Below are positions 50,926-54,279 of a stretch of 64,000 bases of DNA, in pieces. The DNA comes from Polaribacter sp. Hel1_33_78 (GTDB taxonomy: Bacteria > Bacteroidota > Bacteroidia > Flavobacteriales > Flavobacteriaceae): NCBI RefSeq assembly GCF_900106075.1, contig NZ_LT629794.1, forward strand, positions 558,001 to 622,000, given 5' to 3'. The position numbers and the translations under genes are program-made. Position 1 is the first letter of the stretch. Each line of letters starts with the position of its first letter. The notes under the pieces were generated by a model, which saw nothing but the letters and a program-made list of their open reading frames with translations, did not search any database and was not told the origin of the DNA.

Positions 50926-53900
50926 ATGCAATATAATCACCTAGATATAGAAAAGAAATGGCAAAAATTTTGGTCAGAAAACCAAACTTTTAAAGCCAGT
51001 AATGAATCTGAGAAACCTAAATATTATGTTCTAGATATGTTTCCTTATCCTTCTGGAGCAGGTTTACATGTAGGACATCCTTTAGGGTATATTGCAAGTG
51101 ATATTTATGCGCGTTACAAACGCCACAAAGGTTTTAATGTTTTGCATCCGCAAGGATATGATTCTTTTGGATTGCCAGCAGAACAATACGCAATTCAAAC
51201 TGGGCAGCATCCAGCAAAAACAACGGAAGAAAATATTACAACCTATCGAAGACAATTAGATCAAATTGGCTTCTCTTTTGATTGGAGTAGAGAGGTACGA
51301 ACTTCTAATCCTGAGTATTATAAATGGACACAATGGATTTTTATCCAACTCTTTAATTCTTGGTATAATAAAGAAACAGACAAAGCAGAAGATGTTTCTT
51401 CTTTAGAAAACATCTTTAAAAAATCAGGAAACACTTCAATAAATGCGGTTTGTGATGAAGATATTATTTCTTTTTCTGCGGATGAATGGAATGCCTTTTC
51501 AACAAAAGAACAAGAAGAAATTTTATTAAAATATCGTTTAACATTTTTGTCGGATACTGAAGTAAATTGGTGTCCTGGTTTAGGAACTGTTCTAGCAAAT
51601 GATGAAATTGTAAACGGCGTTTCAGAACGTGGAGGTCATCCTGTTGTTCGTAAAAAAATGACACAATGGTCTATGCGAATTTCTGCATATGCGCAGCGTT
51701 TATTAGATGGTTTAAATACTATTGATTGGCCTCAACCTTTAAAAGATTCTCAAACTAATTGGATCGGTAGAAGTCAAGGTGCAATGGTTTCGTTTAAAGT
51801 TGCTGGAGATTTTGAAAGCACTACTTCTGAAGTGAAATTATCTTACAAAGAATTAGAAGCTTTAAAAGAATTACGTCAAAATTTATCAAAGGCAGAAATG
51901 ACGCTTTGGAATGAATTGAAAAATAAAAAAGGAGCTTCAAAATTTAGAAAAAAATATACAATAGGTGCATTTTTAGTAGATTATGTGTGCTTAGCAAAAA
52001 ATATAATTGTTGAGTTTTCCGGCAAAGAAGATGAAGCCGCGAGAACTATTTACTTTGCAAAAGAAGGATTTAACGTTATTCGTTTTACAAACGAAGAAGT
52101 CTCTGATAACGTTCTGAAAATTGTTTCTAAGATTAATTCTGCAATTCAATTTCCAAAAAAAAATAAAAAGGAAATAGAAAATAAAACGGTTTCAAAAGAA
52201 GAAAATCAATATAAAATTGATGTTTTCACAACAAGACCAGATACTATTTACGGAGTAAGCTTTATGACGCTAGCTCCAGAACATGAGTTGGTGTCAAAAA
52301 TAACAACAGATGCTCAAAAAGCAGAAGTTGAAGCTTACATAAAGGCAACTGCTAAAAGGTCAGAACGCGATAGAATGGCAGATGTAAAAACCATTTCTGG
52401 TGCTTTTACAGGTGCGTATGCAATTCATCCTTTTTCTGGTGAAAAAGTACAAATTTGGATTGGAGATTATGTATTAGCAAATTACGGAACAGGAGCTGTG
52501 ATGGCTGTTCCTTGTGGAGATCAGCGTGATTTTGATTTCGCAAAACATTTTGACATTCCGATTCCGAATATTTTTGAAGACGTCGATATCTCTGAAGAAG
52601 CACATACAGGTAAAGACGGAACAAAAATCGCGAACTCAGATTTTTTATCAGGATTAAAATATAAGAAAGCATTAAAATTATCCATTTTTGAAATGGAGAA
52701 ACGTGGTTTTGGTTATGGAAAAATAAACTACCGTTTGCGTGATGCTGTTTTTAGCAGACAACGTTATTGGGGAGAACCTTTTCCGGTGTATTATAAAGAC
52801 GGAATGCCACAAATGATTGATGTAAAACATTTGCCAATTGTGTTGCCAGAAGTTGAAAAATACTTGCCAACGGAAGATGGAAAACCGCCTTTAGGAAATG
52901 CAACAGTATGGGCTTGGGATTCTCGTGGAAAGAAAGTAGTGTCTAATGAGAAGTTGAAAAACAAAACAGTTTTTCCTTTAGAATTAAATACAATGCCTGG
53001 TTGGGCAGGAAGTTCTTGGTATTTTAACAGATACATGGACGCGGCAAATTCAGGCGAATTTGCAAGTAAAGAATCTTTAGAATATTGGAAAGAAGTAGAT
53101 TTATATATTGGAGGTTCAGAACATGCAACCGGGCATTTATTATATGCTCGTTTTTGGCAAAAGTTCTTGTTTGATAAAGGAATTGTTCCTGTAGATGAGT
53201 TTGCAAAAAAACTGATTAATCAGGGAATGATTTTAGGGACTTCTGCTTTTGTTTACAAAGCAACGCCGTTTATAAAATCAGATTGTTTTACGGCACACGC
53301 TAGTGAAGCAATCATGAATAAAATTCCTGCAATACTTGTTTCTAAAAACCTTTTTAATTCTGATAATGAATTTGAAACGATTGTAAAGAATCATATAATT
53401 GATAAAGGATTTTTAAATGCTAATGATGCGGATAGCATTATGATTGTAAAGTCAGCTTTGCATGCAGATGTTTCTCTAGTAAATTCCTCTGATGAACTAG
53501 ATATTGAAGCGTTTAAGAATCATTCTTTGAACGCTGATCATAAAAATGCTGAATTTATTTTAGAAGACGGAGTTTATAAAACTGGACGTGAAGTGGAGAA
53601 AATGTCAAAGTCTAAATACAATGTTGTGAATCCTGACGCTATTTGTGCAGCATATGGCGCAGATGCATTGCGTTTGTTTGAAATGTTTTTAGGCCCTTTA
53701 GAACAGGCAAAACCTTGGAGTACTTCGGGTATTTCTGGAGTTTCCTCGTTCTTAAAGAAACTATGGAAACTGTATTTTAACGAAGAAACATTTGAGATTT
53801 CAGAAGAAGAGGCAACAAAAGATGAGTTAAAGGTTTTACACAAAACCATTAAGAAAGTTGAAGAGGATATCGAGAACTTCTCTTTTAATACTTCTGTTTC

Positions 53901-54279
53901 TACCTTTATGATCGCTGTAAACGAATTAACTGTTTTAAAATGTAATAAACGCGCAGTATTGCAACCGTTAGTAATTTTGGTTTCTCCGTATGCACCCCAT
54001 ATTGCAGAAGAATTATGGAGTTTGTTAGGGAATAAAGAAAGTATTTCTACTGCTGATTTTCCTCTTTTTGATGCAAAACATTTGATAGAAAGCACTAAGA
54101 ATTATCCGATTTCCTTTAACGGAAAAATGCGTTTTACATTGGAGCTTTCTCTTGATTTATCGAAAGAAGAGATAGAAAAAACTGTTTTGGAAAACGAAAA
54201 AACAATTGCGCAATTAGAAGGTAGAACTCCTAAAAAAGTAATTATTGTACCAGGTAAAATTGTAAATATAGTTGGATAG
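50926..54279 (+). CDS. leuS: Leucyl-tRNA synthetase with inserted DUF559 domain
   Basis: Class I LeuRS charges tRNA-Leu. The 1117-residue length exceeds the usual 860-950. The HIGH motif is in LHVGHPLGY near residue 48 and KMSKS is at 892-896. Editing-domain motifs TTRPDTIYG and GTGAVMAVPCGDQRDFDFA are intact, so proofreading is likely kept. Between MVSFKVAGDFES (to 298) and YKIDVFTTRP (from about 428) lies an extra domain of about 100 residues (305-405). It reads LRQNLSKAEMTLWNELKNKK, FLVDYVCLAKNIIVEFSG and NVIRFTNEEV, the pattern of DUF559, a Vsr-like nuclease fold. The insertion is in frame and the enzyme is presumably functional. Confidence 0.93.
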   Translation: MQYNHLDIEKKWQKFWSENQTFKASNESEKPKYYVLDMFPYPSGAGLHVGHPLGYIASDIYARYKRHKGFNVLHPQGYDSFGLPAEQYAIQTGQHPAKTTEENITTYRRQLDQIGFSFDWSREVRTSNPEYYKWTQWIFIQLFNSWYNKETDKAEDVSSLENIFKKSGNTSINAVCDEDIISFSADEWNAFSTKEQEEILLKYRLTFLSDTEVNWCPGLGTVLANDEIVNGVSERGGHPVVRKKMTQWSMRISAYAQRLLDGLNTIDWPQPLKDSQTNWIGRSQGAMVSFKVAGDFESTTSEVKLSYKELEALKELRQNLSKAEMTLWNELKNKKGASKFRKKYTIGAFLVDYVCLAKNIIVEFSGKEDEAARTIYFAKEGFNVIRFTNEEVSDNVLKIVSKINSAIQFPKKNKKEIENKTVSKEENQYKIDVFTTRPDTIYGVSFMTLAPEHELVSKITTDAQKAEVEAYIKATAKRSERDRMADVKTISGAFTGAYAIHPFSGEKVQIWIGDYVLANYGTGAVMAVPCGDQRDFDFAKHFDIPIPNIFEDVDISEEAHTGKDGTKIANSDFLSGLKYKKALKLSIFEMEKRGFGYGKINYRLRDAVFSRQRYWGEPFPVYYKDGMPQMIDVKHLPIVLPEVEKYLPTEDGKPPLGNATVWAWDSRGKKVVSNEKLKNKTVFPLELNTMPGWAGSSWYFNRYMDAANSGEFASKESLEYWKEVDLYIGGSEHATGHLLYARFWQKFLFDKGIVPVDEFAKKLINQGMILGTSAFVYKATPFIKSDCFTAHASEAIMNKIPAILVSKNLFNSDNEFETIVKNHIIDKGFLNANDADSIMIVKSALHADVSLVNSSDELDIEAFKNHSLNADHKNAEFILEDGVYKTGREVEKMSKSKYNVVNPDAICAAYGADALRLFEMFLGPLEQAKPWSTSGISGVSSFLKKLWKLYFNEETFEISEEEATKDELKVLHKTIKKVEEDIENFSFNTSVSTFMIAVNELTVLKCNKRAVLQPLVILVSPYAPHIAEELWSLLGNKESISTADFPLFDAKHLIESTKNYPISFNGKMRFTLELSLDLSKEEIEKTVLENEKTIAQLEGRTPKKVIIVPGKIVNIVG

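Follow-up and report, generated by a model that had tools for sequence, protein, structure and literature searches.

Mobile elements that reside in conserved genes are thought either to need splicing, as introns and inteins do, or to be very short, as are repetitive extragenic palindromes (REPs) and the Rickettsia palindromic elements. Here we describe a DUF559 nuclease domain, roughly 100 residues long, that lies unspliced in leucyl-tRNA synthetase (LeuRS), methionine synthase and RecG, and whose insertion sites are found empty in close relatives. The copy under study was found in a stretch of 64,000 nucleotides from Polaribacter sp. Hel1_33_78 (NZ_LT629794.1, positions 558,001 to 622,000 of the forward strand), hereafter the window, to which all coordinates refer. 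We favour, with modest confidence, the view that this copy, which sits in frame in leuS, descends from a palindromic element that carries a nuclease, inserts in frame and is not spliced out, and that it has since become immobile and domesticated.

The DUF559 family (PF04480) has a solved member, NGO0050 of Neisseria gonorrhoeae (3hrl), which the window insert resembles by profile and by fold match, with the catalytic D and E kept. It departs from the family norm in having Ser in place of the second acid and in being embedded in a tRNA synthetase rather than forming a free-standing open reading frame (ORF). The catalytic-domain fold predicted for the insert is also that of Vsr and of the EDxHD homing endonucleases (I-Bth0305I, 3r3p). 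According to PMC3943268, known EDxHD homing endonucleases are either free-standing or mobile within introns or inteins; the DUF559 domain, in contrast, stays in the host protein, the window copy lacks one acid, and cleavage of the empty allele is in this case presumed. Occupied and empty alleles of the leuS site coexist in close relatives.

Rickettsia palindromic elements and the intragenic GTAG and CGTC REPs are short in-frame palindromes in housekeeping, repair and tRNA-synthetase genes, and the CGTC REPs are described as having no dedicated transposase (PMC3733652). The elements covered there span about 20–82 residues and carry no enzyme, whereas the DUF559 element is a nuclease frame between two inverted palindromes. 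What the window insert has in common with them is the in-frame insertion into a housekeeping gene whose relatives can be empty; at the window insert a palindrome is absent. DNA-enzyme hosts, seen among the fused DUF559 proteins, are likewise reported for intragenic REPs. REPtrons, built around REP-associated tyrosine transposases (RAYTs, or TnpA-REP), also place a nuclease gene between inverted, genome-dispersed palindromes, but RAYTs are HUH tyrosine transposases in genes of their own, whereas the present nuclease is of the PD-(D/E)xK type and in this genus lies mostly within host proteins (92/95 matches). The nuclease between the palindromes was DUF559 and not a RAYT; no search for RAYTs was made in other parts of the genomes.

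Another relevant system is the RAP domain, which has a Vsr-like fold and in FASTKD4 is reported to bind RNA without cutting it (PMC11879112); Plasmodium DUF559 domains have been termed RAP-like (PMC11079077). Unlike the LeuRS insert, for which RNA binding is putative, the RAP domains of FASTKD4 and of apicomplexan mitoribosomal proteins are eukaryotic and mitochondrial, and are joined to FAST or helical-repeat modules. Among open-licence PMC papers we found no report of DUF559 inside LeuRS or any other tRNA synthetase, and none that describes DUF559 elements inserted in frame with flanking palindromes.

Results

The leuS gene (50926–54279, + strand, as are all features below) is an open frame of 1117 codons, the product of which scored 873.4 bits against TIGR00396 (leuS_bact; cut-off 548.4). 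PF04480 matched residues 312–407 of this product (51859–52146) with 68.8 bits (cut-off 20.6; E 4.5e-19), and the insert excised from it with 73.7 bits (E 1.3e-20); the 3.23-Mb genome contained no other DUF559 match. A structural model and fold matches predict a restriction-endonuclease-like fold of the Vsr/PD-(D/E)xK type. The HVGH (residues 48–51), KMSK (892–895) and TRPDT (436–440; 52231–52245) motifs were invariant across 45 aligned LeuRS sequences, the TRPDT block of the editing domain standing intact directly after the insert. A preliminary description of the locus, made from the letters alone, had proposed a Vsr-like DUF559 domain in frame within the CP1 editing domain of a LeuRS that retains its motifs, and the strong profile match, the fold and the alignment all bear this out. 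No intein or Hint splicing domain from Pfam or NCBIfam matched the LeuRS up to an E value of 1.

When the protein was compared with solved structures using phmmer, the alignment with Thermus thermophilus LeuRS ended at query residue 294 and restarted at residue 427, with residues 238 and 239 of the solved chain contiguous and gapless. The segment from NWIGxS to FTTRPDT measured 150 residues in the window, against 18 in LeuRS of the same genus with an empty site (e.g., L153), a surplus of 132 residues or 396 nucleotides. Judged from these alignments, the extra segment interrupts the CP1 editing domain cleanly, at a turn that immediately precedes the FTTRPDT block. By the alignment break and the difference in length, the foreign stretch covers about residues 293–429 (51802–52212), and is thus wider than the 51838–52158 originally assigned to the domain.

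The complete D...E-x-D motif is present in intact relatives, as we call copies with the full E-x-D, and is broken in the window copy and its like, which we call window-type. The altered motif, E363-F-S-G-K-E-D-E370 (52012–52035), has S365 (52018–52020) at the position of the relatives' second acid, D; the catalytic E-x-D, already described as changed, reads E-x-S. In alignment A2 the second acid was D in 67/67 non-window-type rows and S in 12/12 window-type rows. We counted residues in 151 distinct segments that had been picked without use of residues 352–372; the identity cut also let in five rows with D365, which are probably of the intact type. D352 (51979–51981), at the catalytic Asp position, was conserved in 151/151 segments, and E363 in 148, the other three having Asp. 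In the altered loop, G366 was found in 147, K367 and E368 each in 149, and E370 in 146. Residue 365 in the remaining 146 window-type segments was S in 143, V in two and A in one.

The ratio of nonsynonymous to synonymous substitution rates (dN/dS), calculated from 41 sequences (810 pairs), was 0.146 for the window-type domain; the LeuRS body gave 0.124 and the C-terminal linker 0.63. On these values the window-type domain is under purifying selection near that of the synthetase itself; no decay is seen, and the changed loop is itself conserved. The C-terminal linker (residues 411–430; 52156–52215) is a fast-evolving remnant of the 3′ end, with a mean top-residue frequency of 0.50, and the N-terminal linker (residues 293–306; 51802–51843), which lies where intact relatives encode a palindrome, is poorly conserved (0.68 over residues 291–306). 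The segments behind these linker frequencies were selected with a motif filter, which makes the listing circular as regards the motif itself; the 151-segment count repeats the tally without that filter.

The NWIGxS–TRPDT stretch was compared in 85 leuS genes. Forty-one were window-type (the window and 40 of the same genus, with segments of about 148–155 residues), and 20 were intact (eight of the same genus and 12 of other genera, 150–201 residues). DUF559 was absent from 24 whole genes and one partial gene, all of the same genus, with segments of 18–47 residues, mostly 18; the partial one, L176, was excluded from the leuS trees. The "same genus" sampled here spans both names, Polaribacter and Tenacibaculum. 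A search of this genus found DUF559 in 65/97 genomes, with 95 matches: three lay in ORFs of <200 aa, and the other 92 all in frames of ≥250 aa; by score and ORF size 47 of the 95 were window-type, and 41 of these are the ones compared in sequence.

More widely, DUF559 was present in 188/397 Flavobacteriaceae and 138/247 Bacteroidota genomes. The LeuRS profile match was broken at the insert site, by profile positions, in at least 11 of 130 Flavobacteriaceae genomes taken one per genus; the segment is therefore not an ordinary loop of all relatives. With the strong DUF559 match, neither of the two outcomes that the preliminary description had named as refuting it came about. A scan of contigs, one genome per species, with six patterns that included EFSGKEDE, yielded 65 window-type loci in Polaribacter, Tenacibaculum, Lutibacter and other Flavobacteriaceae, 63 of them readable over the whole site. 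The best-studied Lutibacter copies were the most diverged of the named ones, which suggests that the window-type lineage is older than the window's genus.

Short in-frame repeats occupy the C-terminal linker in some relatives. Repeat-like stretches of this kind stood before FTTRPDT in nine window-type genes (L094, L095, L096, L102, L106, L118, L124, L290 and L309) and at the same turn in three DUF559-free genes (L170, L175 and L176), that of L170 being a long inverted repeat. The encoded peptides are of the VIASETKQS and VTSSAVEKS types, and some of the stretches are clearly palindromic. From these sequences the CP1 turn would seem to attract in-frame repeats as a hotspot. L008 and L026 had an in-frame palindrome-like peptide (SPSGRLGG, SPLGRLGG) at another position in leuS, before LELNTMPGWAGSS, without DUF559.

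Intact copies end in G+C-rich hairpins, which are translated in frame as peptides such as FPKGE, PPKGE, PPSGARG and PPLGAGGA. With repeated rows removed, and counting a copy when at least one flank exceeded its shuffles at p ≤ 0.05 (about 10% by chance), hairpins flanked 22/23 intact leuS copies against 1/40 window-type copies. The corresponding counts were 7/12 in metH, 11/15 in recG, 14/15 in other fused hosts and 22/23 in standalone genes, in which the 3′ hairpin may merely be a terminator. The left and right ends were inverted copies of each other in 10/12 metH, 14/23 standalone and 5/15 recG copies; the inverted-end counts, like the hairpin screen that included the window copy, took some leuS genes twice, and the repeat-free flank counts are to be preferred.

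A palindrome pattern derived from the intact ends matched 38 times in genome G050, 17 in G396, 13 in G125, six in G176 and five in G215, once in each of three members of the genus, and in neither G416 nor the window's genome; the reversed pattern, used as a control, had no match in any of the ten genomes. In metH of G215 (twice), G176 and G396, two palindromes of opposite orientation lay exactly 390 bp apart around the DUF559 copy, and the element there is about 410 bp long. Since four of the five G215 matches are these metH brackets, the only genomes with clear dispersal are G050, G396 and G125.

In other Flavobacteriaceae, DUF559 copies with the full E-x-D motif occupied this leuS site in frame, and likewise metH, recG, hsdR, hemD and hisD. 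Restriction-modification, methylase and UvrD-like genes carried the domain in other members of the phylum. The hosts named are those among the matches listed, and their labels were borne out by Pfam for the ten proteins scanned. The metH linker was 14–19 residues long without an insert and 148–156 in carriers (up to 184, counting two genes from other families). One metH gene (L004, of G215) carried two DUF559 copies that were neighbours in the domain tree, each between inverted palindromes 390 bp apart. A DUF559 domain in a synthetase had been thought very unusual; it is common in this genus, and intact, palindrome-flanked relatives in several other housekeeping genes had not been foreseen. 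Many of the fused hosts are DNA enzymes, namely methylases, HsdR, HsdM-like, RecG and UvrD-like proteins (L177, L178, L193, L203, L064, L065 and L066). Palindrome-like peptides without DUF559 were observed in L005, near the second L004 site.

In a tree of 128 distinct DUF559 domains, left from 142 after identical rows were dropped, the window-type copies formed one clade of 40 rows (support 100/100). They fell within a mostly fused side of 94 rows, apart from most free-standing copies (100/93). The recG (15), metH (12, two from other families), hemD (3) and hsdR (2) copies each formed a single clade, and 20 of 23 intact leuS copies lay in one cluster, shared with a UvrD-like host. Such clustering by host gene rather than by species would fit homing elements.

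We also built a tree of the leuS body with the insert excised (85 rows) and one of rpoB, which was found in 61 of the 65 genomes. The window-type, intact and empty states were intermixed on both. On the rpoB tree the window-type state changed 11 times (at least seven forced), the empty state nine times (seven) and the intact state, for its eight rows, eight times (six). Close sisters differed at the site: G131 was intact and G452 window-type, and G409, G415 and G430 were intact, window-type and empty, respectively. The window-type insert followed rpoB, with a Mantel r of 0.67 (p 0.0002, 29 genomes) that falls among the values of the other leuS blocks (0.60–0.81). The corresponding value for the intact insert was 0.01 (p 0.42, eight genomes; other blocks 0.03–0.83). 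We read the window-type insert as passed on vertically, much as leuS itself is, with frequent loss or replacement; the intact type, on these few genomes, may be mobile.

Discussion

In the scheme that we propose, a DUF559 frame resembling Vsr and homing endonucleases, bracketed by G+C-rich palindromes, would have entered the CP1 turn of LeuRS in frame, to be translated within the host protein and never spliced out. Intact copies would spread when either the empty allele, as in homing, or the palindromes at the ends of the copy itself were nicked or cut and the damage was repaired by copying. In an ancestor of the Polaribacter, Tenacibaculum and Lutibacter lineage the ends and the second acid would have been lost and movement would have ceased, and the editing domain would have kept the insert as a folded module that probably binds nucleic acid. 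By analogy with the Vsr-like RAP domain of FASTKD4, this module may contact tRNA(Leu) without cutting it. The earlier suggestion of a domesticated homing-type element comes close to this scheme, in which we infer the descent from such an element, its mobility, its cutting and the present function.

Several findings weigh against this scheme. The window copy had no hairpin beyond shuffles, and the end-to-end inverted repeat was weak in leuS (8/74 rows, with window-type copies and duplicates included). The intact leuS copies did not form one clade (four changes, at least three forced), and the long stem of the window-type clade (1.18) attaches at an unresolved fork, so that the tree does not establish descent from intact leuS copies. 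Old insertions followed by many losses could also yield clades by host gene. With eight species and so wide a range among the other leuS blocks, independent spread of the intact type is suggested but unproven. No conversion tract stood out at the site, codons 432–472 being variable in same-state pairs too, and no target-site duplication was established.

Some of these points would suit a DUF559 domain that was fused long ago and separately, at a turn that tolerates insertions, and was never flanked by palindromes, with the intact copies at the same site arising independently. The single clade, long stem, unresolved fork and absent palindromes agree with such a fusion, and since the turn also receives other short repeats, its repeated use is plausible. 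We nevertheless hold this to be improbable, as the gene, the turn and the domain family are all shared with intact elements in the same genus, and the window-type copies lie on the mostly fused side of the domain tree, away from most free-standing ones. Rather easier to entertain, though still unlikely in our judgement, is a trapped passenger, derived from the element but now useless, which is kept only by selection against misfolding of an essential protein because precise removal is rare. LeuRS works without it in the genus members whose site is empty or short (24 fully read and one partial), purifying selection is expected anyway for a folded domain within an essential enzyme, and the numerous state changes on the rpoB tree point to repeated loss or replacement. 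A passenger does not readily account for the near fixation of the altered active-site loop, and not just the core, across the 151 segments, or for a domain dN/dS near that of the LeuRS body beside a relaxed linker.

The conservation of D352, E363 and K367 could instead mean that the domain is still a nuclease, its site rebuilt with K367 or the following acids and cutting DNA or RNA, for example in defence or stress. The second acid, D in all the non-window-type rows of A2, is nearly always Ser in the window-type, E363 is Asp in three segments, and an active nuclease on an abundant essential enzyme would be costly; we regard this as very improbable. Nothing pointed to the defence-linked sensor that had also been raised, defence genes around the locus not having been looked for. 

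A broader proposal, which we advance tentatively and hold somewhat short of probable, is that Flavobacteriaceae, and probably Bacteroidota at large, harbour an unrecognised class of selfish element, DUF559 between inverted REP-like palindromes. Such elements would insert in frame into conserved genes (leuS, metH, recG, hsdR), be translated within the host protein as a domain that stands on its own, and spread without splicing, by homing or palindrome-directed nicking. They would supply the missing mobiliser of REP-like palindromes, and would have been domesticated in Polaribacter, Tenacibaculum and Lutibacter leuS as a conserved, catalytically altered and possibly RNA-binding domain. If intact copies move, theirs is a selfish strategy in which the nuclease is carried by a host protein, and DUF559, a common family of unknown function, becomes a candidate mobiliser for REP-like palindromes that have no known transposase. 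The window would represent an end state, in which an element stripped of its ends and of some of its active site is now a conserved domain of an essential enzyme.

Additional observations

Residues of about 774–870 of LeuRS (53245–53535), between the catalytic core and KMSKS, were hypervariable in both length and sequence among the LeuRS proteins compared. We take this stretch to be the leucine-specific region.
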